Shown here piece after piece: positions 7,779 through 29,886 of a stretch of DNA of 64,000 bases. Position 1 is the first letter of the stretch. Every line of letters begins with the position of its first letter. The position numbers were made by a program, and so were the translations under genes. The notes under the pieces were generated by a model. It had not been told where the DNA came from. It ran no database searches and saw only the letters and a list, made by a program, of their open reading frames with translations. The stretch covers positions 62,001 to 126,000 of the forward strand of contig NZ_VYQF01000007.1 of the NCBI RefSeq assembly GCF_008710285.1, written 5' to 3'. This stretch comes from Ginsengibacter hankyongi. Its GTDB lineage: Bacteria; Bacteroidota; Bacteroidia; Chitinophagales; Chitinophagaceae.

Positions 7779-10727
7779 ATGAGACAAAGATTGATTTTTG
7801 TAACAGGATGGTTATTTATAATTATTATTCCTGTTTCACTTTTAGCGCAAAATAAAACCGTAACCGGGCAGGTTACCGAAAGAAATAATTTACCGGTTGT
7901 CGGTGCCACTATTGCAGTAAAGAATTCTACAAGGGCCATAGTTTCTGATGCTAATGGAAAGTTTAAATTGTCTATCCCGGATAATGCCGTTTTAATTATC
8001 AGCGCTGCAGGTTATAAAACCCAAACAATAAATACAGAAGCCACAACAGATTTCCAGGTTAAATTACAAGAAGATGTATCCAAGCTTGATGAAGTGGTTG
8101 TTACCGGATTATCAACATCCATTAAAAGAAGAAACCTTGCAAATGCGGTTGCTACTATTTCTGCTAAAGAATTAGATGCAACCTCACCAGCGCAAACTTT
8201 TGATGCTGCCCTGGAAGGAAAAATTCCAGGTGCCTACATTAATGCAAACTCAGGCGCCCCTGGAGGAGGTATTTCTGTAAAATTAAGAGGAGTGACTTCT
8301 GTGTATGGCAATACGCAACCTTTGTATGTTGTAGATGGCGTATTTGTTGATAACACCTCCACATCTGCGGGATTAAATGTTGTTACTTCTGCCCTTGCCA
8401 ACGGGGCCACCACCTCTAACCAGGATAATCCTTCCAGCCGTATTGCAGATTTAAGAGCCGAGGATATTGAAAATATTGAAATACTAAAAGGCGCGTCTGC
8501 CGCGGCGGTTTATGGTTCCAAAGCTGCAGGCGGTGTGGTTATTATTACAACTAAAAGAGGGAAAGCCGGGAAGACAAACATTACTTTTTCACAAGACATT
8601 GGTTTTATTAAAGCCAGTAAGTTATTAGGTGTAAGAGCTTTAACAGCTGACAGGGCTGCAAGTTTATCAAGAGATAGTGCTACATCAGCTGCGTTACGTC
8701 AGCAATTTACGGATGCGCAATCCAAGGGACAGATCTATGATTATGAAAAGGAATTATATGGCAATACTGGTTTCGCAAGAAATACGTTCCTCGGGGTAAG
8801 CGGAGGAAGCGATAATACAACCGTTTATTTTTCTGTTGCACTAAAAGCTGAAGGTGGCATTGTTAAGAGAACAGGATATAATAACACCAGCATTCGGCTG
8901 AATGTAGATCATCGGGTTAATGACAATATTAAAATAGGAATCAGTACAAATTATATTAATTCGTCAGCAGACAGGGGTTTATTCGGCAACGATAATGCAG
9001 GTGTAACAACTGGTATAGCACTTTCATCTACACCCAGCTTTGCACAATTACATCCTGATGCAAACGGGAACTATCCTAATGATCCGTTTGCTGCGTCTAA
9101 CCCTTTACAAACGGTGGCGCTTATGCGAAATAATGAATCAGTGAACCGCTTTATAACGGGAGCGAATCTTGAAGTTATTTTGCAAAAGAACAGCACCAGC
9201 ACTACTAAATTTATCGGCAGGGGAGGATTTGATTTTTATAATCTCCAAACCAGTGTACTCTTCCCTGGTACGCTTCAATTCCAGGCAGTAAATAAAGGCA
9301 CTTCCATCCAGGGCTTTACAAAAAACCTGAGTACTAATTACATCCTTTCTTTGGTAAATACGTTTACTCCTTCTGATAAATTATCACTCATAACATCCGG
9401 AGGTATCACACAGGAAACCGGCGATTATAATAATCTACTAAACATTGCTACGCAGATTATCGCAGGCCAGTCAAATGTTGACCAGGCAGGCGCATTAAAC
9501 GCAACACAATTACGGACCAAATTCCTGAATGGAGGAATTTTTATACAGGAAGAAGCTAATCTTATCGATGCGATAACGTTAACTGCAGGCGTACGTTTTG
9601 ATCGCTCAAGCAATAATGGAGACGTTGGTAAATATTATACTTATCCAAAGGCGGGTATTTCTTGGAACCTAACTAACATGGGTATTCTAAAAGGAGGCTT
9701 TTTTGAAAATATTAAATTGCGTGCAGCTTACGGCCAGGCAAATAATGTTCCTGCTTATGGAAGCAAATTTACTTCAATGGTTGTATCAAACATTACTGGA
9801 TTTCCGGGCTTAATAGTAAATACACAGGAAGGCCATGCAAACATAAAACCTGAAAGACAAACAGAGTTTGAAACCGGTTTGGATTTTAGTATTTTAAAAG
9901 GCCGACTGGGATTTGAACTGACTTATTATAATAAAAATATTGATGACTTTTTAATGTTGACCAATTCACCCGCGTCTTCCGGTTATTCTACCAAGTGGCT
10001 GAATGCCGGTAACCTGAGAAACCGCGGTGTGGAGTTAGGAATGAATGCAAGACCCATTCAATCAAAAAATATAACCTGGAATACTTCGGTAAACTTCTGG
10101 ACAAACCGTTCATTGGTAACTAAATTCATTATACCTCCGGTTCCCCAGGGTTCTTTTGGTTTTGTATTAGGTTCTTTCCAGATTCAGCAAGGAAAATCTG
10201 CAACGCAAATTCTCGGTCTTGACGGCACAGGTGGTGTATCTAAATTAGGTGACGCAGAACCAAAGTTTCAAATGAATACTTATAATGAAATTACTTTTTT
10301 TAATAAGCTAAGCTTGCGCTTTTTGCTGCACTGGAAATACGGAGGACAAAATGTAAACTTAACAAGTCTTGAAAACGATTTTGGCGGCACAAGCCCTGAT
10401 TATGATAAAGTAACTAATAAGCTAGGTGTACCCGATGCTGTCTACCGTCTCATGCAGATAGGTTCAGATGCACATGAGTTTGTACAAAGTTCTTCTTATC
10501 TAAGATTAAGGGAAATCGGATTGTATTATACGTTTACCAAATTGCCTGTTTCTTACATAAAATCAATACAGGTTGGGGTATCTTTCAATAATTATGTAAC
10601 CATTACAAAGTATCATTCATACGATCCTGAAGTATCCAATTTTGGAACCGGATTTTCTTCAGGTATAGATGTCGATCCTTACCCTGCAAGCAAACGTGCC
10701 AACTTTCATGTTTCATTTGATTTTTAA
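7779..10727 (+). CDS. SusC/RagA-type TonB-linked outer-membrane receptor
   Basis: A 982-residue protein. It has a signal peptide (about 1-24, ending SLLAQ), a CarboxypepD-regulatory-like domain (KTVTGQVTERNNLPVVGATIAV, about 25-105), then the SusC plug with LDEVVVTGLSTSIKRRNLANAV, ALEGKIPGAYI, QPLYVVDGVFVDN and IENIEILKGASAAAVYGSKAAGGVVIITTKRGK. The 22-strand barrel follows, ending in the aromatic NFHVSFDF. There is no STN domain, so it is not expected to signal to a FecR anti-sigma factor, in contrast to the second SusC in this window. It forms a lidded importer with the SusD encoded 19 bases downstream. Because the neighbours are AhpD-like enzymes rather than glycosidases, the ligand need not be a glycan. 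Confidence 0.95.
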   Translation: MRQRLIFVTGWLFIIIIPVSLLAQNKTVTGQVTERNNLPVVGATIAVKNSTRAIVSDANGKFKLSIPDNAVLIISAAGYKTQTINTEATTDFQVKLQEDVSKLDEVVVTGLSTSIKRRNLANAVATISAKELDATSPAQTFDAALEGKIPGAYINANSGAPGGGISVKLRGVTSVYGNTQPLYVVDGVFVDNTSTSAGLNVVTSALANGATTSNQDNPSSRIADLRAEDIENIEILKGASAAAVYGSKAAGGVVIITTKRGKAGKTNITFSQDIGFIKASKLLGVRALTADRAASLSRDSATSAALRQQFTDAQSKGQIYDYEKELYGNTGFARNTFLGVSGGSDNTTVYFSVALKAEGGIVKRTGYNNTSIRLNVDHRVNDNIKIGISTNYINSSADRGLFGNDNAGVTTGIALSSTPSFAQLHPDANGNYPNDPFAASNPLQTVALMRNNESVNRFITGANLEVILQKNSTSTTKFIGRGGFDFYNLQTSVLFPGTLQFQAVNKGTSIQGFTKNLSTNYILSLVNTFTPSDKLSLITSGGITQETGDYNNLLNIATQIIAGQSNVDQAGALNATQLRTKFLNGGIFIQEEANLIDAITLTAGVRFDRSSNNGDVGKYYTYPKAGISWNLTNMGILKGGFFENIKLRAAYGQANNVPAYGSKFTSMVVSNITGFPGLIVNTQEGHANIKPERQTEFETGLDFSILKGRLGFELTYYNKNIDDFLMLTNSPASSGYSTKWLNAGNLRNRGVELGMNARPIQSKNITWNTSVNFWTNRSLVTKFIIPPVPQGSFGFVLGSFQIQQGKSATQILGLDGTGGVSKLGDAEPKFQMNTYNEITFFNKLSLRFLLHWKYGGQNVNLTSLENDFGGTSPDYDKVTNKLGVPDAVYRLMQIGSDAHEFVQSSSYLRLREIGLYYTFTKLPVSYIKSIQVGVSFNNYVTITKYHSYDPEVSNFGTGFSSGIDVDPYPASKRANFHVSFDF

Positions 10728-15310: not shown

Positions 15311-15378
15311 TAAGGAGGTTTTAATTTGTGGATAATATTTATTTTTATTTTTCATGCCGAAAAACGATTGTAATATGA
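15311..15378 (+). promoter_or_regulatory. Strong Shine-Dalgarno with a short leader ORF coupled to the sigma gene
   Basis: TAAGGAGG at 15311-15318 is a near-perfect anti-16S match, rare in Bacteroidota. It is 36 bases from the ATG at 15354 but 7-9 bases from a TTG (15326) and a GTG (15328). The TTG frame encodes 15 residues and stops at 15373, one base before the second in-frame sigma ATG (15375). The GTG frame encodes 16 residues and its TGA overlaps that ATG (ATGA). Either would couple leader translation to the sigma factor. Whether the leader is translated is an inference. Confidence 0.4.
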
Positions 15379-15977
15379 TTGACCATGAGTTATTATGGAC
15401 CAGGTTCAAAGAGGGCGATGCAGATGCATTTGGTTTAATTTTTAGAACCTTTTATCAGGATATGTATAATTATGGCAGCAGATTTACCAAAAACACAGAA
15501 CTTATAAAAGACTGCTTACAGGATTTGTTTTTGACACTGTGGAAAAATCGGGAAACTATTAATAATACAGCTTCAGTGAAAAATTATCTGCTGAAATCGG
15601 TGCGCAGGAAACTTAACAAAAAGATCAACAATAATAAGCTTTCAATATACTTTAATGAATCAAGTTTTGATGCAGGTTTCAATATAGTTTTGCCTGTTGA
15701 AAATAACCTGATTTTACAAGAACAGCTAACAGAACTAACTTACAAAGTCAGAAATGTTGTAGAAAGACTTTCTAAGCGTCAGCAAGAAATAATATATCTG
15801 CGCTTTTATATGGATATGGATGTAGAGCAAATTGCTGAAATAATGACTCTTAATCGTCAGTCCGTGTATAATCTTATGTATGACGCACTAAAACAGTTTA
15901 AATCTCTCGCAGGACCTGATTATTTTTCCATTCCTTTTAGTGTATTTCTTTTGATTGGATTTTCCATCCGTTTATAA
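15354..15977 (+). CDS. ECF-type RNA polymerase sigma factor
   Basis: A 207-residue (or 200 from the ATG at 15375) sigma-70 family protein. Region 2 includes DADAFGLIFRTFYQDMYNYGSRF and IKDCLQDLFLTLWKNRE; region 4 includes LSKRQQEIIYLRFYMDMDVEQIAEIMTLNRQSVYNLMYDALKQFK. The tail is hydrophobic (PFSVFLLIGFSIRL). Bacteroidota ECF factors of this kind sit upstream of fecR and an STN-bearing SusC, as here. They are held by the anti-sigma factor until the receptor binds its ligand, then transcribe the susCD operon. The start at 15375 (MIDHELLW) may be the true one because of the leader coupling. Confidence 0.93.
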   Translation: MPKNDCNMIDHELLWTRFKEGDADAFGLIFRTFYQDMYNYGSRFTKNTELIKDCLQDLFLTLWKNRETINNTASVKNYLLKSVRRKLNKKINNNKLSIYFNESSFDAGFNIVLPVENNLILQEQLTELTYKVRNVVERLSKRQQEIIYLRFYMDMDVEQIAEIMTLNRQSVYNLMYDALKQFKSLAGPDYFSIPFSVFLLIGFSIRL

Positions 15978-16117: not shown

Positions 16118-17254
16118 ATGGAAAGGCAGTTTAACTCTATAGAAGATTTGGTATTTAATAAATCATTCCGGGAGTGGATATTAAATAACGAAAGCAGCAA
16201 TGCCGTTTATTGGGAAAAATGGGTACTTGAAAATCCGGATAAAAAGGAAATTCTCAATCATTCTAAAGCTATCATGTATGCGCTATCTGTTAACCACAAT
16301 AAATTATCGGAAGAAGAAATTAGCACAGAAATAAATAAAATTCTTCAAAAATTAGATAATACTACCGACACAATACCTGTTGAGACTTTTTATGGTGATA
16401 AAAATATTATACCTATTAAACAATTCTTTTTACAAAGAAGATTGTGGGTAGGGGCGGCCGCAATCTTATTAATTTTTTTCCTTTCATTATACACAATATT
16501 TTATAGGCATAATAATAAAATGGGAAATTCTGCTTATTATGAATTGCCCGATGGAAGTAATTCTACCGCATCTATTGAGCGGGTAAATAACTCAGACAGT
16601 GTACAGCAGGTGAATCTTTCTGAGGGAAGCAAAGTTTCATTATTTCCAAGGAGTAAACTTACTTTTTCTGAAGACTCTGCCGGTAGCAAAAGAGAAGTAT
16701 ATCTCACGGGTCAGGCATTTTTTCAGGTTGCCAAAAATCCATTAAAGCCCTTTTTTGTATTTACAAAAAACATGGTTACCAAAGTCCTTGGTACGAGTTT
16801 CTTGATAAGGGCTTACGATAATGATAAAGCGGCCTCTGTTGAAGTCAGAACCGGGAAAGTTTCTGTATATAAAAAAGAGAATTTTACAGATTCGAATATC
16901 AGATCCAAAAGATTAGATGGAATAATTGTGACACCCAATCAGAAGATGGTCTATGATTTTAAGAGCGATCAGTTAACCAAAACCATTATTGAAAAGCCAG
17001 TGCTGTTAGAACCTGCTGTTCAGAATAATTTCGTTTTTGATGGCACGCCGGTTAAAGATGTTTTTAAGTTATTAGAAGATGCATATGGTATAAGGATTAT
17101 GTATGATGATGATTTATTATCATCCTGTTCTCTTACTGCTACTTTTGGTAGTGAAGGCTTCTATGACAAAATAAGTCTTATCTGCAAAGCTATAAACGCT
17201 TCTTATGAAATAATTGATGGAAATATTTTTATAACATCCAAGGGCTGTAAATAA
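16118..17254 (+). CDS. FecR-family anti-sigma factor
   Basis: A 378-residue single-pass inner-membrane protein. The cytoplasmic N-terminus (1-107) has the helical FecR_N-type anti-sigma part, with the W-rich FREWILNN...VYWEKWVLENP. A membrane segment lies at about 109-128. The periplasmic FecR domain includes LSEGSKVSLFPRSKLTF, REVYLTGQAFFQVAKNPLKPFFVFT and VLGTSFLIRAYDNDKAASVEVRTGKVSVY. The C-terminal STN-like DUF4974 segment contains FDGTPVKDVFKLLEDAYGIRI. It relays receptor occupancy from the STN domain of the next gene's SusC to the sigma factor encoded 140 bases upstream. Confidence 0.95.
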   Translation: MERQFNSIEDLVFNKSFREWILNNESSNAVYWEKWVLENPDKKEILNHSKAIMYALSVNHNKLSEEEISTEINKILQKLDNTTDTIPVETFYGDKNIIPIKQFFLQRRLWVGAAAILLIFFLSLYTIFYRHNNKMGNSAYYELPDGSNSTASIERVNNSDSVQQVNLSEGSKVSLFPRSKLTFSEDSAGSKREVYLTGQAFFQVAKNPLKPFFVFTKNMVTKVLGTSFLIRAYDNDKAASVEVRTGKVSVYKKENFTDSNIRSKRLDGIIVTPNQKMVYDFKSDQLTKTIIEKPVLLEPAVQNNFVFDGTPVKDVFKLLEDAYGIRIMYDDDLLSSCSLTATFGSEGFYDKISLICKAINASYEIIDGNIFITSKGCK

Positions 17255-17424: not shown

Positions 17425-20400
17425 ATGAAAAAAATTCTGACGAGATCAGTAGTGATTGGAATTATGAAATTTTCTATGCTTTCTACATTTTTGCTGTCAT
17501 TTGTATTATGCTCCTATGCTAAGTACGCAACTGGTCAAGATTTGCTGTTGAAAAAAATTACTCTTAAAATCAAATCTGAGAATATCAAAAGTGTTCTAAC
17601 GGAAATAGAAAAAAATTCAGAACTTAAATTTATGTATAGCCCGGAGCTTATAAATTCTTCACGGAAAGTATCTATATCAGCCAAAAATGAAGAAGTCTCC
17701 AAAATATTAAACCGTGTTCTTCAGCCATTAGGAATAAGGTATGAGGTGGTAAACAGTTACATTATATTAATCAGAAACAGGGAAGGGGATAGTTTATATA
17801 TACCCGAACTAAACAGTTTGTTTAATGAAAAAGTACTTCTTAAAGTAATCACAGGGAGTGTTTTAACAGAGGAAGGGCAACCGTTGCAGGGTGTTAGTGT
17901 TACTGCAAAGGGAACGCAGATAGGCACTTCCACAGACGCTAAAGGAAATTTTTCCCTCAATGTTGATGAATCTGCCACTACTCTGGTTTTCACTTATGTG
18001 GGTTACATAAGCAGTGAAGTTTCAATTGTAAACCGACAAACGGTAAGCATTGTACTTCATGCCGAAACAAAGGGCTTAAATGAGGTAGTGGTAATTGGCT
18101 ACGGAACCCAGAAAAAATCCAATTTGACAGGATCGGTATCTTCTATTTCAGAAAGGGATATAAAGGCAGTCGCCATTACATCACCTGACCAGGCTTTAGA
18201 AGGCAAGGCCCCTGGAGTACAGGTAACACAGAATTCTAGTGCTCCTGGTGGTGGAACCACGATCAGAATAAGAGGCGGTAATTCTATACAGGGAGGTAAT
18301 GAACCCTTATATGTAATTGATGGTGTTCCTGTTTATAATGATAATGGAAATAGCGGAGCGTCATTAAATGGCCTAAGTTCAATAAGTCCGGGTGATATAG
18401 CTTCAATTGAAATTCTAAAAGATGCTTCTGCAACCGCGATTTATGGTTCCAGGGGAGCAAATGGAGTTGTTTTAATTACTACTAAGAGAGGGAAGTCGGG
18501 CCAGGCAAATATTAATTTTGAGGTGTATCATGGTATTCAGAATGTCAGAAGGAAATATCCATTGTTAAACGGATCTGAGTTTGCCAAGTTGGTGAATGAA
18601 GCAAATACTAATGTTGGTAGTAATCCCGTATATACGCAGCAGCAAATTGATTCGATAGGAGTGGGCACCGACTGGCAAAATCAAATTTTCAGGACTGCCC
18701 CGATAAGCAATTATTATCTGTCGGCAAATGGAGGGGATGAAAAAACTCAATATGCAATTTCCGGAAGTTATTTTAAACAGGAAGGAATCGTTTTAAACTC
18801 TGATTTTGAAAGATCTTCTTTTCGATTAAATTTAGATAGAAAGCTAACTTCTAAACTTAAAGTTGGAAATAGTTTGACTTTCAGCCACTCAATGTCAAAC
18901 AGATCTAGCACCGATGGATTTTTAGGCTCACCAGGTCAGGTTATTTCCAATACACTCCAAATATCCCCTACAGTTCCAGTTTACAACTCCGACGGTAGTT
19001 ATACTTTGCAAAACATATCTGGCGGACAATTGACAGATAATCCGGTAGCATTAGCAAAGGATTCTAAGAGTCTAATAAATGTTAATAGAGTTTTAGGTAA
19101 TGTATATGGGGAATATGATATCATCCCTGGACTTAGATTAAAAGTATTAGTTGGAATAGATGGTGTCTTTCAAAAGGGTAACAACTATTTGCCTAAATCT
19201 GTTTTAAGTGGTTTTCAACAAGGAGGTTTGGCCTCTATTTCTAATACCCAAAGTATCTCCTGGTTAAATGAAAATACGCTTACTTATGATAAAGATTTTA
19301 ACGAAATACATCATCTTACCTTTTTAGCTGGCTATACGCAACAGGCCAACCGTACCGAATATAGTTATGCAGCTTCAAGAAATTTCATTAACGATAATCT
19401 TGGATACAATAACCTGGGGGCCGGTTCCGTGGCATTATCTCCAAATTCAGGTGTTGGAACCTGGGGCTTGACTTCTTATTTAGGCAGAATAAATTATGGC
19501 TATAAAGATAAATATCTCTTAACGCTCACAGGACGTGTAGATGGCTCTTCAAGATTTGGAGTAAACAATCGCTATGGCTTTTTCCCTTCGGGTGCCGCTG
19601 CCTGGCGCATGAATAAAGAAGATTTTATAAAAAATTTACACATTTTTAGTGATTTAAAGTTGAGAGTAAGTTATGGATTAACCGGTAACCAGGAAGGTAT
19701 TGGCAACTATCCTTCTCTAGCTCTTTTATCTGTTCAAAATTATGTGCTCGGAAATCAAATAAGCAGTGGTGTTGGTCCCTCTCAGATCGCGAACCCTGAT
19801 CTTAAATGGGAATCAACTTCTCAATCTGACGTAGGTCTGGACATCTCTTTCTTTAATAACAGGCTATCGCTGACAGCAGATGCTTATATAAAGCATACTA
19901 AAGATTTATTATTGAATATTACTATTCCAGGAACTTCAGGTTATTCCAGTGCGCTGAAAAATATAGGAGAAGTAGAAAACAAAGGAGTAGAATTCGGGAT
20001 AAATTCAGAAAATATAGCTGGCGCCTTTAAATGGACCACCGATTTTAATATTTCCTTTAATAAAAATACCGTTTTAAATATTGGCAATGTATCGCAAATT
20101 TTTGCTGGCCAGACAGCCAATATTGCCCAAAATGTAAGTTCCGGTATTATTGAAGTAGGAAAACCTTTAGGATCATTTTATGGATATGTAACGGATGGGG
20201 TTTTTCAAGCCAGCGATAAGATTGCCAGTTCTGCCCAACCAAGCGCTAAACCAGGCGACAGAAGGTATAAGGATCTGAACGGTGACAATAAAATCAATGA
20301 TAATGATCGTACCATCCTAGGCCAGGCACAACCAAAGTTTTTGGGAGGCATTACCAATAACTTTAGTTTCAAAGGTTTTGAGTTATCAGTATTTCTGCAG

Positions 20401-20826
20401 GGCGTTTATGGTAATAGTATTCTCAATGCCAACAGATTTGAACTGGAATACTTAAGTGGAACGACCAACCAAGATAGGGATATGCTAAACCGATGGACAC
20501 CAACTAATACGAATACTGATATTCCAAGGGCTTCTGTAAACAGACCAGCAAACGTAATTTCAAACAGGCAGGTAGAAGACGGCTCTTATTTAAGATTAAA
20601 AAATATCCAGTTAGCGTATAATCTTCCTGAGAACGCATTAAAATTAGCTAAAATAAGGTCTCTGAAAATATATGTAAGCGCACAAAATTACATAACCTGG
20701 ACCAGATACTCAGGATACGATCCTGAAGTTAACCGCTACGGGCAGGATAACGTTAGCCAGGGATTTGACTATGGAAGTTATCCGGCAGCAAAAACGATTT
20801 TATTTGGCCTCAATCTAGGCTTATAA
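17425..20826 (+). CDS. SusC-type TonB-linked receptor with STN signalling domain
   Basis: An 1133-residue outer-membrane protein. After the signal region (1-37) comes an STN domain (about 40-118: LKKITLKIKSENIKSVLTEIEKNSELKFMYS...SYIILI). A carboxypeptidase-like domain follows (VITGSVLTEEGQPLQGVSVTAKG, about 138-212), then the SusC plug (LNEVVVIGYGTQKKSNLTGSVSSI, EPLYVIDGVPVYND, IASIEILKDASATAIYGSRGANGVVLITTKRGK) and the barrel ending TILFGLNLGL. The STN domain makes it a transducer: substrate binding should signal to the FecR protein upstream. It pairs with the SusD encoded 67 bases downstream. The ligand is unknown; the locus encodes no glycosidase. Confidence 0.96.
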   Translation: MKKILTRSVVIGIMKFSMLSTFLLSFVLCSYAKYATGQDLLLKKITLKIKSENIKSVLTEIEKNSELKFMYSPELINSSRKVSISAKNEEVSKILNRVLQPLGIRYEVVNSYIILIRNREGDSLYIPELNSLFNEKVLLKVITGSVLTEEGQPLQGVSVTAKGTQIGTSTDAKGNFSLNVDESATTLVFTYVGYISSEVSIVNRQTVSIVLHAETKGLNEVVVIGYGTQKKSNLTGSVSSISERDIKAVAITSPDQALEGKAPGVQVTQNSSAPGGGTTIRIRGGNSIQGGNEPLYVIDGVPVYNDNGNSGASLNGLSSISPGDIASIEILKDASATAIYGSRGANGVVLITTKRGKSGQANINFEVYHGIQNVRRKYPLLNGSEFAKLVNEANTNVGSNPVYTQQQIDSIGVGTDWQNQIFRTAPISNYYLSANGGDEKTQYAISGSYFKQEGIVLNSDFERSSFRLNLDRKLTSKLKVGNSLTFSHSMSNRSSTDGFLGSPGQVISNTLQISPTVPVYNSDGSYTLQNISGGQLTDNPVALAKDSKSLINVNRVLGNVYGEYDIIPGLRLKVLVGIDGVFQKGNNYLPKSVLSGFQQGGLASISNTQSISWLNENTLTYDKDFNEIHHLTFLAGYTQQANRTEYSYAASRNFINDNLGYNNLGAGSVALSPNSGVGTWGLTSYLGRINYGYKDKYLLTLTGRVDGSSRFGVNNRYGFFPSGAAAWRMNKEDFIKNLHIFSDLKLRVSYGLTGNQEGIGNYPSLALLSVQNYVLGNQISSGVGPSQIANPDLKWESTSQSDVGLDISFFNNRLSLTADAYIKHTKDLLLNITIPGTSGYSSALKNIGEVENKGVEFGINSENIAGAFKWTTDFNISFNKNTVLNIGNVSQIFAGQTANIAQNVSSGIIEVGKPLGSFYGYVTDGVFQASDKIASSAQPSAKPGDRRYKDLNGDNKINDNDRTILGQAQPKFLGGITNNFSFKGFELSVFLQGVYGNSILNANRFELEYLSGTTNQDRDMLNRWTPTNTNTDIPRASVNRPANVISNRQVEDGSYLRLKNIQLAYNLPENALKLAKIRSLKIYVSAQNYITWTRYSGYDPEVNRYGQDNVSQGFDYGSYPAAKTILFGLNLGL

Positions 20827-20893: not shown

Positions 20894-22315
20894 ATGAAAC
20901 ATATTATAACCATATTATTCGTTGGTCTGATCTTTACTTCTTGCAGTAAAGTGTTGGATAAAAAGCCGGAAGCAGTATTTTCACCAGCTAATTTTTATAA
21001 AACTTCTGCAGATGGTATCGCTGCTGTAAGTGCCGTATATAGCCCTCTATTCTCACCTAATTTATACAACCAGGTGATGTGGGTTTTTCAGGACCAGAGC
21101 ACTGATGATGCTGAATGGGGCAACGGAAGAAATACTGCCAACCAGGCAAAAAACGATTTAGATAAATATACTTTTACCCCATCTACAGTTTATTTTTATG
21201 CCCTTTGGACAACCTGTTACCAAGCTATTAACCGTGCCAACACGGCCATTGACAATATCCCGGGAATTACTATGGATGCAACTCTAAAAAGCAGGTTAAT
21301 AGGAGAAGCCGCCTTCTTGAGAGCATTTTATTATTTCACATTAGTCAGGTTATACGGGAAAGTACCCCTTATAACCAAGGCAACTAAAGATTTATCCAAT
21401 TTAAATGTACCACGCAGCCCAGTTGATTCAGTTTATACTCAAATAATCAAAGATTTTACAGTCGCTGAAAATTCCTTGCCCTTAAGTTACTCCGGCACAG
21501 ATAAGGGAAGAGCCACAAAGGGCGCCGCAAAAGCGTTCGTGGCTTCCGTTTATTTAACACTGCAACAATGGGATAAGGCATCTGCTAAAGCAAAAGAAGT
21601 AATTGATCTGGAATCACAAGGAATTTATGGGCTATGGACTAATTATTCAGATGCATTCCTGGTTGCAAATAAAAACGGCAAAGAATCTATATTCGAAATC
21701 CAGGCGTTGGGAGGGGGTTTTGGGCAAGGTAGCTTTATGCAGGGATATATGCGGGCACCTTATGATCGGGGAGGCTATGGTGATGACCCTCCTACCAAAA
21801 ATATTTATGACTCTTATTCAACGTCAGATAAACGCCGTGATGTAAATCTAAAGTTATTTACCTCTCCACCTGCCCCTTCGAGTATTCTTTTTCCATGTTA
21901 CGTGGGTAAATATCAGGATCCTGGAGCTACTGCTAATGGTGAAGGGAATAATAACTACCCTATATTTCGGTATGCAGAGATTCTTCTTATTTATGCCGAA
22001 GCGTTGAATGAGCAAGGATCAAATAACCCGGATGCTTATGCGGCTATCAACAGAATTAGAAACAGAGCCGGGTTGAATGACCTTACACCAAATTTATCCC
22101 AGGGCCAATTCCGCGATTCTGTTTATCTTGAAAGGAGACTGGAGTTAGCTTTTGAAGGCCATCGTAGGTATGATTTGATCAGAACCGGAAAGTTGGCAGA
22201 AGCTGTGAATGCACAGAATCCAAGTATAATAATCAAACCCTATCAGGTTCTGTTTCCGATTCCTCAAAGTGAGAGAGATGCAAATCATATGCTGGACCAA
22301 AATCCGGGTTATTAA
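20894..22315 (+). CDS. SusD/RagB-type surface lipoprotein
   Basis: A 473-residue lipoprotein (lipobox IFTSC, Cys17) with standard SusD features: VLDKKPEAVFSPANFYKT at the N-terminus, TPR-like helices with CYQAINRANTAIDNIPGI and RLIGEAAFLRAFYYFTLVRLYGKVPLI, then RYAEILLIYAEALNEQG...INRIRNRAGL, and the C-terminal LERRLELAFEGHRRYDLIRTGK with LFPIPQSERDANHMLDQNPGY. It is expected to bind substrate on the cell surface over the SusC encoded 67 bases upstream. The SGNH hydrolase gene follows 69 bases downstream. Confidence 0.96.
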   Translation: MKHIITILFVGLIFTSCSKVLDKKPEAVFSPANFYKTSADGIAAVSAVYSPLFSPNLYNQVMWVFQDQSTDDAEWGNGRNTANQAKNDLDKYTFTPSTVYFYALWTTCYQAINRANTAIDNIPGITMDATLKSRLIGEAAFLRAFYYFTLVRLYGKVPLITKATKDLSNLNVPRSPVDSVYTQIIKDFTVAENSLPLSYSGTDKGRATKGAAKAFVASVYLTLQQWDKASAKAKEVIDLESQGIYGLWTNYSDAFLVANKNGKESIFEIQALGGGFGQGSFMQGYMRAPYDRGGYGDDPPTKNIYDSYSTSDKRRDVNLKLFTSPPAPSSILFPCYVGKYQDPGATANGEGNNNYPIFRYAEILLIYAEALNEQGSNNPDAYAAINRIRNRAGLNDLTPNLSQGQFRDSVYLERRLELAFEGHRRYDLIRTGKLAEAVNAQNPSIIIKPYQVLFPIPQSERDANHMLDQNPGY

Positions 22316-22384: not shown

Positions 22385-23110
22385 ATGTTTTATTATCGAA
22401 ATATAAAAAGCGTCCTCATTTTTATAGGTATTTTAATGATTACTTGCTGCAAGAAAACCTATGCCCAGCAATCCGCTCAACCAATAGTAATTAATGCAGG
22501 AATCGGAGGAAATAATACAAAAGATCTGTTGGAAAGAATAGACAAAGATTGTTTGGCTTATAAGCCGGATTTGACAGTATTGATGGTGGGGACGAATGAT
22601 ATGAACAGCATGAAATATATACCCATCGAACAGTATGAAAAGAATCTTCGAAGGATCATTAATCTTATCCTGAAATCAAAATCACAGGTTTTAGTAATGA
22701 ATATCTTACCCAACTATGAACCTTACCTGCTAACCCGCCACCCAAGAAAATTTTATGGTGAAGAAGGGCCATCGGGAAGGATGGCCGAGGTAAATGCAGT
22801 TATAAAAAAAGTTGCGGCAGAAAAGAAAGTTTATTTTTTGGATATGCATCACATTTTTAATAAGGTTGGGAATATAGGTTTAGACAAAAGCAGCCTTATA
22901 CAAAACCAAGCCAATAGCAACAATACGGACGGTTTACATCCCACCCCGGAAGGATACCGGGTTATGGGAATCGTGGTCTATGAATATATTATGAATAAAA
23001 AATTGCCGCACCATAAGGTTGTTTGCTTTGGTGATAGTATTACTTATGGCGATGGAAGCATGGACAAAGAAAGTTATCCGGCGTATTTGAAAAAATTATT
23101 GAGCGAGTGA
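22385..23110 (+). CDS. SGNH/GDSL hydrolase with circularly permuted motif order
   Basis: A 241-residue exported protein (hydrophobic 9-20; ITCC at 19-22 could be a lipobox, or cleavage after TYA). The motif order is unusual: mature protein begins at block II (VINAGIGGNNT, 35-45), then block III GTND (69-72) and block V DGLHPTPEGY (D182, H185). Only then comes block I, KVVCFGDSITYGDGS (211-225, nucleophile S218), followed by YPAYLKKLLSE and the stop. In ordinary members GDS is at the N-terminus and YPAYL leads into VINAG, so this is an exact permutation. No second GDS exists upstream. The family cleaves esters, often acetyl groups on glycans. Gene lies between susD and an FAD oxidoreductase. 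Confidence 0.85.
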   Translation: MFYYRNIKSVLIFIGILMITCCKKTYAQQSAQPIVINAGIGGNNTKDLLERIDKDCLAYKPDLTVLMVGTNDMNSMKYIPIEQYEKNLRRIINLILKSKSQVLVMNILPNYEPYLLTRHPRKFYGEEGPSGRMAEVNAVIKKVAAEKKVYFLDMHHIFNKVGNIGLDKSSLIQNQANSNNTDGLHPTPEGYRVMGIVVYEYIMNKKLPHHKVVCFGDSITYGDGSMDKESYPAYLKKLLSE

Positions 23111-23226: not shown

Positions 23227-25224
23227 ATGAAGAAGAAAATTATCAATAGTATCATACTCTTATTACTATTTATTAGTAACGAAGGGCATGCTCAACAGGT
23301 TTATGATATAGTTGTATATGGTGCTACTTCCGGTGGTGTAATAGCGGCATACACCGCAAAGAAAGAAGGCAAGTCAGTTTTATTGATTGAGCCAGGTAAA
23401 CATGTAGGTGGGTTAACAACCGGTGGATTAGGATACACTGATATAGGAAATAAATATGCCATTACGGGCATTTCTAGGGATTTTTATCGCCGTATAGGGC
23501 AGCATTATGGAAAATTTGAACAGTGGATTTTTGAACCGCATGTGGCAGAACAAATTTTTCTTGGTTACCTGAAGTCTGCTAAAGTGAACGTACTGTACCA
23601 ACACCGGCTAGTATCCGTAAAAAAGAAGAGTGGTTTTATTAAAGAAATAACAATAGAAAATTCAGATAAACCGGGCAGGTCCTCCTATAAAATTATTAGA
23701 GCAACAATTTTTATTGATTGTTCTTATGAAGGCGACCTGATGGCGAAAGCAGGTGTATCCTACGTTACCGGGCGGGAAGCTAATAGCATGTACAATGAAA
23801 CTTACAATGGTGTTCAGTTACGCGAAAGACATCAGTTTCCTGATAGCATAGATCCATATAGAGTTCCCGGATATCCGCAAAGTGGTTTGCTGTGGGGTAT
23901 CAGTGCCGCACCGTTAGATTTTCAAGGGGCAGGCGATAAAAAAATACAAACCTATAATTTCAGGATCTGCCTTACTAATAACCCGTCGAACCGAATAACC
24001 ATCACAAAACCGAATGATTATAATGCCTCGCATTACGGATTGCTTTTGCGTTATCTGGAAAAAAAGCCTGCAAAAGATTTAGAGTCATTTTTGAACATTA
24101 ACTTATTACCTAACCATAAAACAGACATTAATAATAATGGTCCTTTCTCAACAGATATGATCGGGATGAATTATGCTTATCCTGCGGCCGATTATGCAAC
24201 CCGGGGGGAAATACAACAAGCCCATGAATCTTATACAAAAGGACTTTTGTATTTTATAGGGCACGATGAACGGATGCCTTTGCACTTACGTAAGTTGATG
24301 CTACAGTGGGGGTATCCAAAAGATGAATATACGAATAACGGAAACTTTTCTCCGCAAATGTATGTGCGTGAAGCGAGACGCATGAAAGGTGAATATGTGA
24401 TGACACAGGCCAATTGCGAATCTAAAGAAGTGGTGAGTGATGGTATTGGAATGGCTGCCTATACTATGGACTCACATAATTGCCAGCGAATTGTTGTAAA
24501 TGGCATGGTAAAAAATGAAGGTAACGTTGAAATTGGAGGTTTTGGGCCTTATCCCATTTCATATAGGTCAATCATACCTAAGGCAAATGAATGCAAAAAC
24601 TTACTAGTACCGGTTTGTTTATCTGCTACTCATATTGCTTATGGTTCTATCCGAATGGAGCCGGTTTTTATGGTGTTAAGCCAATCTGCGGCTATGGCTG
24701 CTGTGTTAGCATCTGATACTAAAAAAACGGTTCAGCAAATTGATATAAACAAACTGCGGCAAATACTTAAAACAAATCCCCTGGCAGATAATAGTACACC
24801 GGAAATATTGGTGGATAATGACGATGATGCGCACGTTGTAAAAACAGGTATTTGGTCCACTATTCACCAGAAATGTTATGGGCCTTCAGCATTTACTGCA
24901 GATGGCAAAACTGATTCAATAAAATCGGTACAGTTTATACCAACGATCGTCAAATCGGGTAAATATAAAGTGTATTCTTATTATCCAAAATTAGAGAATG
25001 AAACATCAGTGACCAGCATTATAGTTTTTGATGGAAAAACAAAAAAAGAAATAGTAGTAAGAGAATCAGATATTCAGGTGGAAGGACAGACTTCAGGTGA
25101 ATGGGTGGATTTGGGCACTTACAGTTTACCATCAGGAAAGAAATCACTTGTGGAGATCACAAACAAACACTCAGACGGTGTTGTCGTTGCGGATGCCATA
25201 TTATTTGTGCCCGAAAATAAATAA
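23227..25224 (+). CDS. FAD-dependent oxidoreductase with golvesin/xanthan-lyase-like C-terminal domain
   Basis: A 665-residue exported protein (signal peptide 1-22, ending GHAQ). The FAD_oxidored (PF12831-like) part has the dinucleotide fold VYDIVVYGATSGGVIAAYTA (25-44) and VLLIEPGKHVGGLTTGGLGY, plus IDCSYEGDLMAKAGVSYVTGRE, MYVREARRMKGEYVMT and HIAYGSIRMEPVFMVLSQSAA. The final ~140 residues (from about 525: ILVDNDDDAHVVKTGIWS) form a beta-sandwich like the golvesin/xanthan-lyase C-terminal domain, which may bind carbohydrate or cell surface. These enzymes occur in Bacteroidota SusCD loci; the reaction is not established. The paralogue at 25478 lacks the extra domain. Confidence 0.88.
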   Translation: MKKKIINSIILLLLFISNEGHAQQVYDIVVYGATSGGVIAAYTAKKEGKSVLLIEPGKHVGGLTTGGLGYTDIGNKYAITGISRDFYRRIGQHYGKFEQWIFEPHVAEQIFLGYLKSAKVNVLYQHRLVSVKKKSGFIKEITIENSDKPGRSSYKIIRATIFIDCSYEGDLMAKAGVSYVTGREANSMYNETYNGVQLRERHQFPDSIDPYRVPGYPQSGLLWGISAAPLDFQGAGDKKIQTYNFRICLTNNPSNRITITKPNDYNASHYGLLLRYLEKKPAKDLESFLNINLLPNHKTDINNNGPFSTDMIGMNYAYPAADYATRGEIQQAHESYTKGLLYFIGHDERMPLHLRKLMLQWGYPKDEYTNNGNFSPQMYVREARRMKGEYVMTQANCESKEVVSDGIGMAAYTMDSHNCQRIVVNGMVKNEGNVEIGGFGPYPISYRSIIPKANECKNLLVPVCLSATHIAYGSIRMEPVFMVLSQSAAMAAVLASDTKKTVQQIDINKLRQILKTNPLADNSTPEILVDNDDDAHVVKTGIWSTIHQKCYGPSAFTADGKTDSIKSVQFIPTIVKSGKYKVYSYYPKLENETSVTSIIVFDGKTKKEIVVRESDIQVEGQTSGEWVDLGTYSLPSGKKSLVEITNKHSDGVVVADAILFVPENK

Positions 25225-25228
25225 TGAG

Positions 25229-25357
25229 TTGTATCAAAATTTGAACATTAATAAAAAATTGCCACACCAACAGGTCGTTTGTTTTGGAGTCAGTATTACT
25301 AATGGAGACGGAAGTATAGACAAAGAAAGTTATCAGCCTTATCTGAAAAATTACTGA
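25229..25357 (+). pseudogene. Decayed copy of the SGNH block-I tail
   Basis: Directly after the first oxidoreductase a frame reads LYQNLNINKKLPHQQVVCFG then VSITNGDGSIDKESYQPYLK, matching the last ~43 residues of the upstream SGNH protein (YEYIMNKKLPHHKVVCFGDS...). The catalytic GDS has become GVS, and there is no start or signal. DNA runs such as aataaaaaattgcc and gacaaagaaagttatc are identical in both copies. The similarity continues through the leader into the signal peptide of the next gene, so it marks a segmental duplication. Confidence 0.8.
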
Positions 25358-25477
25358 GCAAATAACTGAAAGCAAAGTAAAATGAAAGTGGATAGGATAA
25401 TTAAGATTCATGGGGAAAGAACAAAGCTCCTCGCTTATATCACAAATTAAAATTTTCAATTAAGATAGAATTAATAC

Positions 25478-27133
25478 ATGAAAAAAATCATTAACAATAG
25501 TGTTATACTCTTATTACTATTTGTGACTAAAGAAGGCCAGGCACAAAAGATTCACAAGGCTTACGATGTAGTAATATATGGCGCCACTTCAGCAGGTGTA
25601 ATGGCAGCAGTTGCAGCCAAACAAAATGGAACATCTGTGATGCTACTAAGTCCTGAAACGCACATAGGAGGCCTTACCAGTAATGGGTTGGGGTGGACCG
25701 ACATAGGAAATCAAACGCATCAAAAAACAATTGGCGGGCTTACCCTAAATTTTTTTCACAGGATACACAGGTACTATCAGAACGCCAAAGCCTGGAATCA
25801 GGAAACTTTGGCCAATTACCGGGAAAAGGTAACAAATTCCATTTATGAACTCACCGATAGCCTTATGTGGACCTTTGAGCCGCATGTAGCGGAAAAAGTC
25901 TTTAACAATTTTATCAGGGAGAATAAAATAACGATGAAGTTAAATCAGTGGCTGGACCGGCAGCATGGCGTTAAAAAAGAAAACGGGAAAATTGTATCCA
26001 TTACAATGTTAAATGGTGATACCTATAGTGGCAAGGTTTTCATAGATGCTACTTATGAAGGCGACTTGATGGCCGCCGCAGGCGTATCTTATACCATTGG
26101 CCGGGAACCGAATAGCAAGTATGGCGAAACAATTAATGGTATAGAAACACAATTGACCAAAGGCAATAACTTGCCACGGGGCATTGATCCTTATTTACAA
26201 AAGGGAAATGCCACAAGTGGACTTTTGCCCGGTATAAACGCTGATGCCGGTGGCAAAGACGGTGAGGGAGATAAAAAAATACAGGCCTATTGCTACCGGG
26301 TATGTCTTACAGATGCAACTTTGAACAGGGTCATGGTTGCTAAACCGGCCAACTATAAAAAAGAGGATTTTGAATTAATCATAAGGGCTGCACAAAAGGG
26401 TGTAAAAACATTTTGGAAACTCTCTCCTTTGCCCAATCGTAAAACGGATTCTAATAATGATGGCGGAGTCTCTATGGATTACATCGGTATGAATTATGAT
26501 TACCCTGAGGCCTCTTATTTAGAAAGAAAAAAAATGGATGAGGCGCATTTGTATTGGACCAAAGGTTTAATATGGACAGTGCAGCATGATCCCGGAATAC
26601 CAGCGGATGTGCAAAAAAAATACGCTTCATGGGGATTGGCGAAAGATGAATTTAAAGAAAATGAGCACATGCCATACAAGTTATATGTTAGGGAAGCCAG
26701 GCGTATGGTTAGTGATTTTGTAATGTCAGAAAGTTATTTAAAAGGAGATAAGACCGTTCCGGAATCAATTGCTATGGGAAACTATAATATGGATAGCCAT
26801 AATGTTCAACGGCATGTGACGGCAGAAGGTGATGTTCAAAATGAAGGGGATGTACAAATTGCTGTAGAGCAACCTTATCCAATATCATATAAAGCCATTA
26901 TTCCTAACGTTAAAGAATGTACGAATTTGCTAGTGCCGGTATGCTTATCTGCATCGCATATTGCTTATGGTTCCATTCGTATGGAACCAGTGTTTATGAT
27001 GTTGGGCCAATCATCCGGAATAGCTGCTTCCATCGCAGTAAAAAATAGGAAGGATGTAGAGGATATCAATTATACTGAATTGGAAAAAAAACTGTTAAGC
27101 AGTGGCCAGATATTGTCACACTCTCAAAAATGA
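25478..27133 (+). CDS. FAD-dependent oxidoreductase, second copy
   Basis: A 551-residue exported FAD_oxidored (PF12831-like) protein. Signal peptide 1-22 (ending GQAQ), Rossmann start YDVVIYGATSAGVMAAVAA (29-47), HIGGLTSNGLGWTDIG, FIDATYEGDLMAAAGVSYTIGRE, LYVREARRMVSDFVM and HIAYGSIRMEPVFMMLGQSS. It lacks the C-terminal beta domain of its neighbour and has an insertion after TDIG (KTIGGLTLNFFHRIHRYYQN). The leader and signal-peptide DNA are strikingly like those of the first copy, while the enzyme bodies are more diverged. It overlaps the MFS start by four bases (ATGA), so the two are translationally coupled. Confidence 0.9.
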   Translation: MKKIINNSVILLLLFVTKEGQAQKIHKAYDVVIYGATSAGVMAAVAAKQNGTSVMLLSPETHIGGLTSNGLGWTDIGNQTHQKTIGGLTLNFFHRIHRYYQNAKAWNQETLANYREKVTNSIYELTDSLMWTFEPHVAEKVFNNFIRENKITMKLNQWLDRQHGVKKENGKIVSITMLNGDTYSGKVFIDATYEGDLMAAAGVSYTIGREPNSKYGETINGIETQLTKGNNLPRGIDPYLQKGNATSGLLPGINADAGGKDGEGDKKIQAYCYRVCLTDATLNRVMVAKPANYKKEDFELIIRAAQKGVKTFWKLSPLPNRKTDSNNDGGVSMDYIGMNYDYPEASYLERKKMDEAHLYWTKGLIWTVQHDPGIPADVQKKYASWGLAKDEFKENEHMPYKLYVREARRMVSDFVMSESYLKGDKTVPESIAMGNYNMDSHNVQRHVTAEGDVQNEGDVQIAVEQPYPISYKAIIPNVKECTNLLVPVCLSASHIAYGSIRMEPVFMMLGQSSGIAASIAVKNRKDVEDINYTELEKKLLSSGQILSHSQK

Positions 27134-28413
27134 TAAAGTTTGCACTATTGAAATTGCGTCCGAAACTGCTGCGTTACTGTTCCCCTTACGCCTTTAGGGG
27201 ATACTCATCAAAAATTATGCTCCTTCTTATCGTCGCTGCCCTCGGTTATTTTGTTGACATCTATGATCTTCTTTTATTCAGTATCGTTCGTATTCCAAGT
27301 TTGCAATCATTGGGTTTACATGGGCAGGATGTAACAGACAATGGGATTTTTCTATTGAATGTTCAAATGGTCGGGTTGCTGGCAGGTGGGATTTTTTGGG
27401 GTATTCTAGGGGACAAGAAAGGACGGCTATCTGTTTTATTCGGTTCAATATTTTTATATTCCTTAGCTAATATAGCCAACGGGTTTACCCACTCGGTAGA
27501 AGGCTATTCCGTATGGCGTTTCATTGCGGGGTTTGGGCTGGCAGGAGAACTTGGCGCCGGCATTACACTGGTTGCCGAAATTATGCCAAGAGAAAAACGA
27601 GGGTACGCCACCACCATTGTAGCGGGCGTGGGCGTGAGCGGAGCTGTAGCAGCATTCTTTATTGCCCGGTTTTTTGACTGGCGAACCTCGTTTTTTATAG
27701 GGGGCGGCTTAGGGCTTTCACTACTGCTGTTGCGAGTCGGAATTGCTGAATCCGGAATGTTTGCAAAATCCAAAAAAGGAAACACCCGTCATGGTGATTT
27801 TTTCTCGTTGTTTACAAATAAGCAACGGTTTTTTAAATACATTAGATGTATCCTCATTGGTGTGCCTCTTTGGTTTGTGGTAGGTATTTTAATTACACTA
27901 TCTCCTGAATTTGGTAAAGTATTAGGAGTAAATGGGGATGTGAACGCTGGTGAAGCTGTGGCCTGGTGCTATGGGGGCCTGGTATTAGGAGACATTGTAA
28001 GCGGACTGCTTAGCCAGTATCTTAAAAGCAGAGTCAAAGTAGTATATATTTACCTGTTTTTATCTATCATTGCAATTTCATCCTTTTTATTTCTGCGTGA
28101 TATCAGCCTGGTATCTTTTTATTTCATCTGTTTATGCCTTGGCTTTTCTGTGGGTTATTGGGTAATCTTTATGACAATAGCTACAGAACAATTTGGAACC
28201 AATATCAGGGCAACGGTAACTACTACTGTCCCCAATTTTGTACGTGGAGCAGTCGTGCCCCTGTCCTTGCTTTTCCAATATCTTAAAAGTTTTTTTCGAG
28301 GCTCGATTATTCATGCCGGCATTGCAGTGGCGGTCTTAAGCCTTGGACTTGCTTTTTGGGCTTTAAGCAAAATGCAGGAAACATTTTTCAAGGACCTTGA
28401 TTATGTAGAATGA
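27130..28413 (+). CDS. MFS transporter
   Basis: A 427-residue inner-membrane protein with about 12 hydrophobic segments. Signature loops are FWGILGDKKGRLSVLFGS after TM2, and WRFIAGFGLAGELGAGITLVAEIMPREKRGYATT in TM4/5, typical of the metabolite:H+ symporter-type MFS branch (sialate/shikimate/aromatic-acid-like). The start overlaps the end of the second oxidoreductase (ATGA). It closes the sigma/FecR/SusCD locus and probably imports the small product made by the periplasmic enzymes. It is clearly distinct from the MFS gene at 4695 and not a close duplicate. Confidence 0.9.
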   Translation: MIKFALLKLRPKLLRYCSPYAFRGYSSKIMLLLIVAALGYFVDIYDLLLFSIVRIPSLQSLGLHGQDVTDNGIFLLNVQMVGLLAGGIFWGILGDKKGRLSVLFGSIFLYSLANIANGFTHSVEGYSVWRFIAGFGLAGELGAGITLVAEIMPREKRGYATTIVAGVGVSGAVAAFFIARFFDWRTSFFIGGGLGLSLLLLRVGIAESGMFAKSKKGNTRHGDFFSLFTNKQRFFKYIRCILIGVPLWFVVGILITLSPEFGKVLGVNGDVNAGEAVAWCYGGLVLGDIVSGLLSQYLKSRVKVVYIYLFLSIIAISSFLFLRDISLVSFYFICLCLGFSVGYWVIFMTIATEQFGTNIRATVTTTVPNFVRGAVVPLSLLFQYLKSFFRGSIIHAGIAVAVLSLGLAFWALSKMQETFFKDLDYVE

Positions 28414-28638: not shown

Positions 28639-29886
28639 TTAGCCGATTTTCTTGTCTATAATCTTTGATGAAACCTGAAACTTACGGCGGAGCGCCTGCA
28701 TGTCATTGCTTACTTTCTTATCCAGGATCTTGGCATAGATCTGGGTTGTTTGAATTTTTGTATGTCCCAACATTTTACTTATTGACTCAATCGGTACACC
28801 GTTAGTAAGTGTAACTGTGGTTGCAAAAGTGTGACGGGCCACGTGAAAGGTTAGTTTTTTATTAATTCCACATATGGCGGCAATTTCTTTGAGATATGAA
28901 TTCATTCTTTGATTGGATGGCACAGGTAATAATCTTTTACCGGCTACAGCTACGGGATGATTTGAATATTGATCGAGAATATCCAAAGCCGGCTGTAATA
29001 ATGGAATACGTGAAGGAGTCTCCGTTTTTTGCCTGTGTGTAAAAATCCATTTTTCGCCATCTATGCCGATGGAAATATTATTTGCTGTTAAATTATAAAT
29101 ATCGATGTAAGCAAGGCCCGTGTAGCAACTGAAAAGAAACAGGTCTTTTATATGTTGTAATCTTTCAATAGTAAATTCTTTTTCGTGGATCGTCTGTAGT
29201 TCCAACTCTGAAAGAAATTCTCTGTCTGTTTTCTTTGCCTTGACTTTATAAGCCATGAAAGGGTCTTTATCCAACCAGTTTTTTGAAACACATTCTCTAA
29301 CTATCTTCTTAATGTTTTTGATGTACTTGGCATTGGTATTTACATCAATATTTTTTTGGGACTTCAAATAAAATTCAAAGTCGGTAATGAATTCAAAATT
29401 TAGTTTCTTTAAATTGATATCCGCGATGTTGAATTTCCATTTCAGGAATTCTCGTATATGCCTGTACGTTGTATTATATTTTACCCAGGTTGCTTTTGAA
29501 TAGCCTTTATCGATTAATGTTTTAATATCGTTGTTGTGTTGTTGGATTATTTCCATCAACATCCGGGGCCTTTCGACTACGCCGGCATATTCTTTTTTGA
29601 AGGATTCAATTGATACAATTTCATTTCTTGCTTCAAGCCTGCTTCGGCAACTCAAAATCTTTGTCTTGATAAAAGCAAGATCGTTATTTATCATATTTGC
29701 TTCTGCGGATTTTCCTCTTACTTTTTGAGAACCCGGATTCCATCCAACAACTGATATTTCTCTTTGTGCTGAAATTTCCAATCTATTGCCGTTAATTGTT
29801 ACTCTGGCATAAATTGGAGCTTTGCCATTTTTCATACGGTTTTTCTTAATCCAGAAAAGGATTGAAAATGAGAGTTGTGTTTGCAT
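28639..29886 (-). CDS. Site-specific tyrosine recombinase (integrase)
   Basis: A 415-residue protein of normal length for Bacteroidota element integrases. It has an arm-binding N-terminal domain (about 5-90: FWIKKNRMKNGKAPIYARVT...), a SAM-like core-binding domain (about 105-210) and the catalytic domain (about 225-400) with H348-x-x-R351 (HVARHTF), H375 (GHTKIQT) and nucleophile Y384 (TQIYAKI). The box-I position normally holding arginine reads CYTGLAYIDI (A259), an alteration also known in IntDOT-type enzymes. It is transcribed away from tRNA-Asp, whose 3' end faces it, the classic position for a tRNA-targeted island. A decayed relative lies at 13.8-14.1 kb. Confidence 0.95.
   Translation of the reverse strand: MQTQLSFSILFWIKKNRMKNGKAPIYARVTINGNRLEISAQREISVVGWNPGSQKVRGKSAEANMINNDLAFIKTKILSCRSRLEARNEIVSIESFKKEYAGVVERPRMLMEIIQQHNNDIKTLIDKGYSKATWVKYNTTYRHIREFLKWKFNIADINLKKLNFEFITDFEFYLKSQKNIDVNTNAKYIKNIKKIVRECVSKNWLDKDPFMAYKVKAKKTDREFLSELELQTIHEKEFTIERLQHIKDLFLFSCYTGLAYIDIYNLTANNISIGIDGEKWIFTHRQKTETPSRIPLLQPALDILDQYSNHPVAVAGKRLLPVPSNQRMNSYLKEIAAICGINKKLTFHVARHTFATTVTLTNGVPIESISKMLGHTKIQTTQIYAKILDKKVSNDMQALRRKFQVSSKIIDKKIG

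Follow-up and report, generated by a model that had tools for sequence, protein, structure and literature searches.

Evidence for a naturally circularly permuted SGNH hydrolase with a C-terminal block I in Ginsengibacter hankyongi

The window, i.e. the whole stretch of 64,000 nucleotides of Ginsengibacter hankyongi DNA analysed here, contains a gene whose sequence strongly supports its identification as a naturally circularly permuted SGNH hydrolase. Along the 241-residue chain the conserved blocks run in the order II-III-V-I (G-N-H-S). The S-G-N-H order typical of the SGNH superfamily, departed from by the AlgX group, is absent. Taking the evidence jointly, we are confident in reading the product as a probably secreted SGNH hydrolase permuted between blocks I and II, its tail predicted to take the place of strand beta-1, with a likely role as a glycan O-acyl esterase.

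Results

Block order and profile matches

An earlier note on this DNA had described the order II-III-V-I at 22385-23110; the blocks, their residue numbers and the C-terminus were all found again on re-reading the open reading frame (Table 1). The translation starts with a hydrophobic leader, followed by VINAGIGGNNT; judging this leader by eye, the protein is probably secreted. At the other extremity, 21 residues lie between the end of block I and the C-terminus, and the chain closes in YPAYLKKLLSE.

Table 1. Features of the permuted SGNH gene and its neighbourhood (window positions).
Feature	Position	Strand	Basis
Sigma-70-type factor	15354-15977	+	Pfam
FecR-type protein	16118-17254	+	Pfam
Presumed SusC-like gene, upstream	17425-20826	+	ORF
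Presumed SusD-like gene, upstream	20894-22315	+	ORF
Gene of the permuted SGNH hydrolase (241 aa; blocks II-III-V-I)	22385..23110	+	ORF, motifs, Pfam
Probable signal peptide region, ~residues 1-28, strand beta-2 next	22385..22468	+	by eye; low pLDDT 13-30
Block II NAGIGGNNT, residues 37-45, predicted oxyanion Gly39	22493..22519	+	sequence; Gly39 35/35
Block III GTND, residues 69-72, predicted oxyanion Asn71	22589..22600	+	sequence; Asn71 35/35
Block V DGLHPT, residues 182-187, Asp182 and His185	22928..22945	+	sequence; both 35/35
Canonically N-terminal segment, here relocated (beta-1 and alpha-1), residues 207-241	23003..23107	+	profile, model, dN/dS
Block I GDSIT at residues 216-220, Ser218 as predicted nucleophile	23030..23044	+	sequence; Ser 35/35, Asp 34/35
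FAD_oxidored (PF12831) protein with Golvesin_C, 665 aa, next downstream gene	23227..25224	+	Pfam
Relic copy of the permuted gene's 3' end plus following spacer; GVS instead of GDS, body missing	25247..25404	+	repeats D3/D6, alignment, translation
Second FAD_oxidored (PF12831) protein, 551 aa, no Golvesin_C match	25478..27133	+	Pfam
MFS transporter	27130..28413	+	Pfam

In its native order the protein matches the Pfam profile Lipase_GDSL_2 (PF13472) with 102.7 bits, against a curated cut-off of 32.9, and the match is split into two stretches. Deprived of its tail, the body reaches 83.1 bits, with a match that begins at profile position 35 and leaves the first 34 positions uncovered. Once the last 34 residues are put in front, a single match covers positions 1-178 of 178 with 110.9 bits; a doubled copy of the sequence, the check proposed in the earlier note, likewise gives the full 1-178 match across the junction. 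Such restoration of a full-length match by reordering is the expected signature of circular permutation.

Strict motif patterns sorted 55 ORFs into 29 with block I exclusively C-terminal and 26 with it exclusively N-terminal; none carried it at both ends, as an intermediate would. We also considered the in-frame letters after the stop codon, FKTRVID, as a canonical continuation of the chain. This resemblance is attributed to chance, since by eye none of 23 other after-stop translations (two of them one locus taken twice) shows a continuation resembling an SGNH body.

All 35 members, i.e. the window gene and 34 other loci, retain the catalytic Ser, Gly, Asn, Asp and His, which together with the profile matches and the homologues bears out the identification. 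To enter this set, a sequence had to score >100 bits with a profile of permuted members, reach its C-terminal part and contain the block I motif; the motif filter cost no row, as 34/34 loci with an intact match passed it. Invariant are Ser218, Gly216, Thr220, Gly39, Gly69, Asn71, Asp72, Asp182, Gly183 and His185, the block I residues Gly and Ser having belonged to the motif used for reordering the rows, and Asp217 is kept in 34/35. An earlier alignment of 23 members likewise preserved the catalytic residues. The fragmentary loci L064 and L065 were excluded, L033 is identical to L004 and was counted once, and the second permuted gene of genome G947 stands outside both the tree and the context counts given below.

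Genomic context and proposed function

In many relatives, homologues of the upstream pair, whose SusC-like and SusD-like names are presumed from the sequences, lie near the permuted gene. The MFS transporter has a homologue there in four fetched relatives (L050, L053, L054 and L056), and selected neighbours in relatives include GH92, GH88, GH2-like and GH63-like proteins. Beyond the transporter, a minus-strand frame at 28639-29886 resembles by eye a tyrosine recombinase/integrase.

The G. hankyongi genome yielded only four PF12831 genes, two of them at this locus. A FAD_oxidored-like gene lies within ~2 kb in 21/34 permuted loci (22/35 counting the window) and is absent in 13/35; the link holds for 17/18 loci of the Chitinophaga-type clade and 5/17 outside it. 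All five positives outside the clade are PF12831 by Pfam: four belong to three other Bacteroidota families and one to Planctomycetota. No such neighbour was seen at 20 canonical SGNH loci, drawn from 74 canonical matches (the first 18 listed plus those of G009 and G027); this control is narrow, because all 20 come from the host's own family and from one canonical subgroup. Two loci with a FAD_oxidored gene contain degraded permuted SGNH genes, L064 (genome G143) and L065 (7764-8171), and in the latter the body that would separate block II from the C-terminal region is lacking.

From this context the likely role of the protein would be that of a glycan O-acyl esterase of a polysaccharide-utilization locus: a serine esterase that may remove O-acyl, probably O-acetyl, groups from glycans taken up by the SusC/D pair, and that may work together with the neighbouring PF12831 FAD oxidoreductase.

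Canonical Lipase_GDSL_2 esterases (e.g. 1yzf, 4iyj and 3p94) are among the best PDB matches of the window protein in both sequence and fold; in the alignments inspected their block I is N-terminal, whereas here it is C-terminal. Partial matches were obtained with the acetylxylan esterases AxeA1 and Axe2, which are SGNH carbohydrate esterases too. Membership in the AxeA1 family itself is not indicated: the match to NCBIfam NF042968 has 47.5 of 700 bits, far under the curated cut-off.

Circular permutation of the SGNH fold is known. The earlier note knew of no standard description of such an arrangement, a statement that has to be withdrawn for permutation as such: according to a 2022 review, AlgX and AlgJ are circularly permuted with the order H-S-G-N, and the core of PatB1 is permuted as well (PMC9487903); the order of AlgJ is given as H-S-G-Y in another paper (PMC4148444). 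The AlgX/AlgJ/DHHW (PatB1) proteins thus share a circularly permuted SGNH fold with the window protein (PMC9487903, PMC4148444). However, the chain of the AlgX/AlgJ group is cut between blocks III and V and that of the window protein between I and II, and the blocks of AlgX, AlgJ and PatB1 are altered while those of the window protein are canonical. No AlgX or DHHW profile appears among its Pfam matches at E up to 1.

This comparison also raises the question of whether the permuted fold is right and the esterase assignment wrong, the protein being instead an O-acyltransferase or a binding protein like those of the AlgX/PatB1 group. The members of the known permuted group (AlgX/AlgJ and PatB1) are described as acetyltransferases, with weak esterase activity in AlgJ/AlgX (PMC9487903). 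Yet the hydrolase blocks are kept here and altered in AlgX and PatB1 (PMC9487903), and glycoside hydrolases neighbour the gene in relatives. We therefore regard this alternative as rather unlikely and retain an esterase as the likely role.

Predicted structure

An AlphaFold2 prediction of the window protein from a five-row alignment has a pLDDT of 76.8 and a pTM of 0.77. It contains five predicted strands, at 34-40, 63-68, 101-106, 150-153 and 211-217, the last of them in the tail, followed by a C-terminal helix at 231-240. This is the element list of an SGNH fold, with beta-1 and alpha-1 coming last. Confidence is low at residues 13-30, and the loop 222-225 falls below 50.

In a Foldseek search, the first rank was taken by 9hi6, a designed scaffold, and the best natural match was the SGNH lipase/acylhydrolase 1yzf (E 2.4e-05, probability 1.00); the top 38 matches at E <=0.001 are mostly SGNH hydrolases. 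TM-scores are moderate for most top matches, ~0.5 by query and 0.5-0.6 by target. As the Foldseek alignment follows chain order, the permutation itself is not scored by it.

We propose that the chain was opened between blocks I and II, so that it starts at strand beta-2 and passes through blocks II, III and V; a linker of ~6 residues (~205-210) would then connect the last helix to beta-1 and alpha-1, now the C-terminus. The tail strand would occupy the beta-1 place and bring Ser218 to His185 and Asp182, while Gly39 and Asn71 would provide the oxyanion hole. This predicted convergence of the catalytic residues is based on their conservation and on the predicted secondary structure.

Removing the tail lowers the number of residues at pLDDT >=90 from 78/241 to 30/206 and the pTM from 0.77 to 0.70. 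The mean confidence of the body (residues 31-200, averaged block means) is ~81 with the tail and ~80 without it, and strand beta-2 is still assigned in the tail-less prediction; a need for the tail can therefore not be read from these models.

The same model bears on domain swapping, in which the C-terminal segment would complete the active site of a neighbouring subunit and the protein would be obligately oligomeric instead of a permuted monomer. The shortness of the linker from the last helix to the tail strand (~205-210) speaks in its favour, and a single-chain model is blind to swapping. Nevertheless, the tail strand and helix are formed in that single-chain model, with pLDDT block means of 81 and 91, respectively, and two members of the family sit in large proteins, where swapping is less natural. 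We consider it quite improbable and keep to the permuted monomer.

Distribution, selection and origin

A search of 394 host-family genomes gave matches at E 1e-10 or better in 38. In 20 of the 394, the G. hankyongi genome included, the permuted gene is intact: the query is covered through residue 239-241 and the ORFs read II-III-V-I. The 18 other matching genomes hold fragments (G143 and G277) or matches short of the tail, several of which were read, and seen to be canonical. None of the nine same-genus genomes among those listed matched, and the distribution is patchy. Using a profile of permuted members, with only the best candidates scored per genome, we found permuted genes in 12/298 genomes of the order, 4/395 of the phylum and 3/345 of the class, these samples overlapping. 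Three further Bacteroidota families hold the gene, i.e. four with the host family; the block order was read in the sequences of the genomes concerned (G497, G548, G926, G947 and G1271). In Planctomycetota, 5/199 sampled genomes contain 6 permuted genes. The homologues with a C-terminal GDS that the earlier note had suggested looking for thus exist in four Bacteroidota families and in Planctomycetota, and its reservation that all homologues might have an N-terminal GDS did not materialize: the permuted order recurs in independent genomes.

In the order sample, permuted members score at least 197 bits and reach profile position 238-239; canonical matches score at most 79 bits and mostly end near 205, and one incomplete gene (G143) scores 102.7 bits with the permuted profile. 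Among 147 family genomes, no close unpermuted sister was seen, the best canonical-order match having only 103.4 bits with the reordered profile. The permuted profile matches 43 PDB sequences, but no best stretch crosses from body to tail: these stretches end by 208 or, in 4rw0, comprise 208-221 alone.

Several members deviate in their architecture. In the Planctomycetota genome G1403, the permuted unit is N-terminal in two proteins of 1162 and 1346 aa (L128:244-3729 and L129:4019-8056), and the chain continues past block I and helix alpha-1 into other regions, which include DUF6259 at 686-976 in one protein and CBM_4_9 at 274-390 in the other; L129 has GAS where others have GDS. A permuted gene of G1346 (L125, ~7953-8585) has a stop codon immediately after block I and may be a decaying copy. 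In L019/L058 no leader precedes block II, given the start chosen. A 723-aa open frame of another Planctomycetota genome (G1276:C301:1495-2607) contains two tandem SGNH-like matches.

Compared with an 84% identical relative, dN/dS is 0.59 in the leader, 0.03 in the body and 0.06 in the tail; these values are rough, because the stretches are short and dS exceeds 1 for body and tail. By this sequence comparison, the tail is under purifying selection. Within the window, repeats at ~2250-2330 base spacing connect the sequence from 22991 onwards with the sequence from 25247 onwards, a tandem duplication that takes in the FAD-oxidoreductase gene and the 3' end of the permuted gene. Between the relic and the intact tail, dS is ~0.97, dN ~0.09 and dN/dS ~0.09 over 33 codons, which suggests that the second duplicated unit formerly carried a working permuted SGNH gene.

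That the gene is a local rearrangement, an assembly error or a pseudogene, with a broken tandem SGNH pair read as a single ORF, can be virtually dismissed: the locus does hold a tandem duplication and a relic tail, but the identical order is found in other genera, families, a second phylum and independent genomes, which argues against an assembly error, and the tail is under purifying selection. Nor did the permutation originate in the local tandem duplication, the natural route envisaged in the earlier note: its presence in relatives from other families and from a second phylum makes it older than that event.

When 35 permuted and 24 canonical sequences were placed in one tree, all permuted rows fell on one side of a single branch (75/93; 78% of bootstrap trees). 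A smaller tree of 30 and 10 rows, whose strict patterns missed several known rows, has the same split (70/88). Support is modest, and the grouping is compatible with one origin without proving it. The permuted order may go back to a single ancient event.

Discussion

While circular permutation of SGNH proteins is known, its G-N-H-S variant looks new: searches of the open PMC literature brought up no description of it. More speculatively, and less likely than not, the permuted genes could represent an undescribed ancient family, common to Bacteroidota and Planctomycetota and of an origin separate from the AlgX permutation, that forms a two-enzyme module with PF12831 proteins: deacylation of the glycan would come first, and the flavoenzyme would then oxidise the exposed sugar. 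The PF12831 link is in any case a lead towards a candidate glycan-modifying step.

If the permutation is true, a very large hydrolase superfamily would have a second circular permutation, cut at another place and here with the canonical catalytic blocks kept. It would offer a natural test of which SGNH loops tolerate opening, and annotation rules that want block I first can miss such enzymes.
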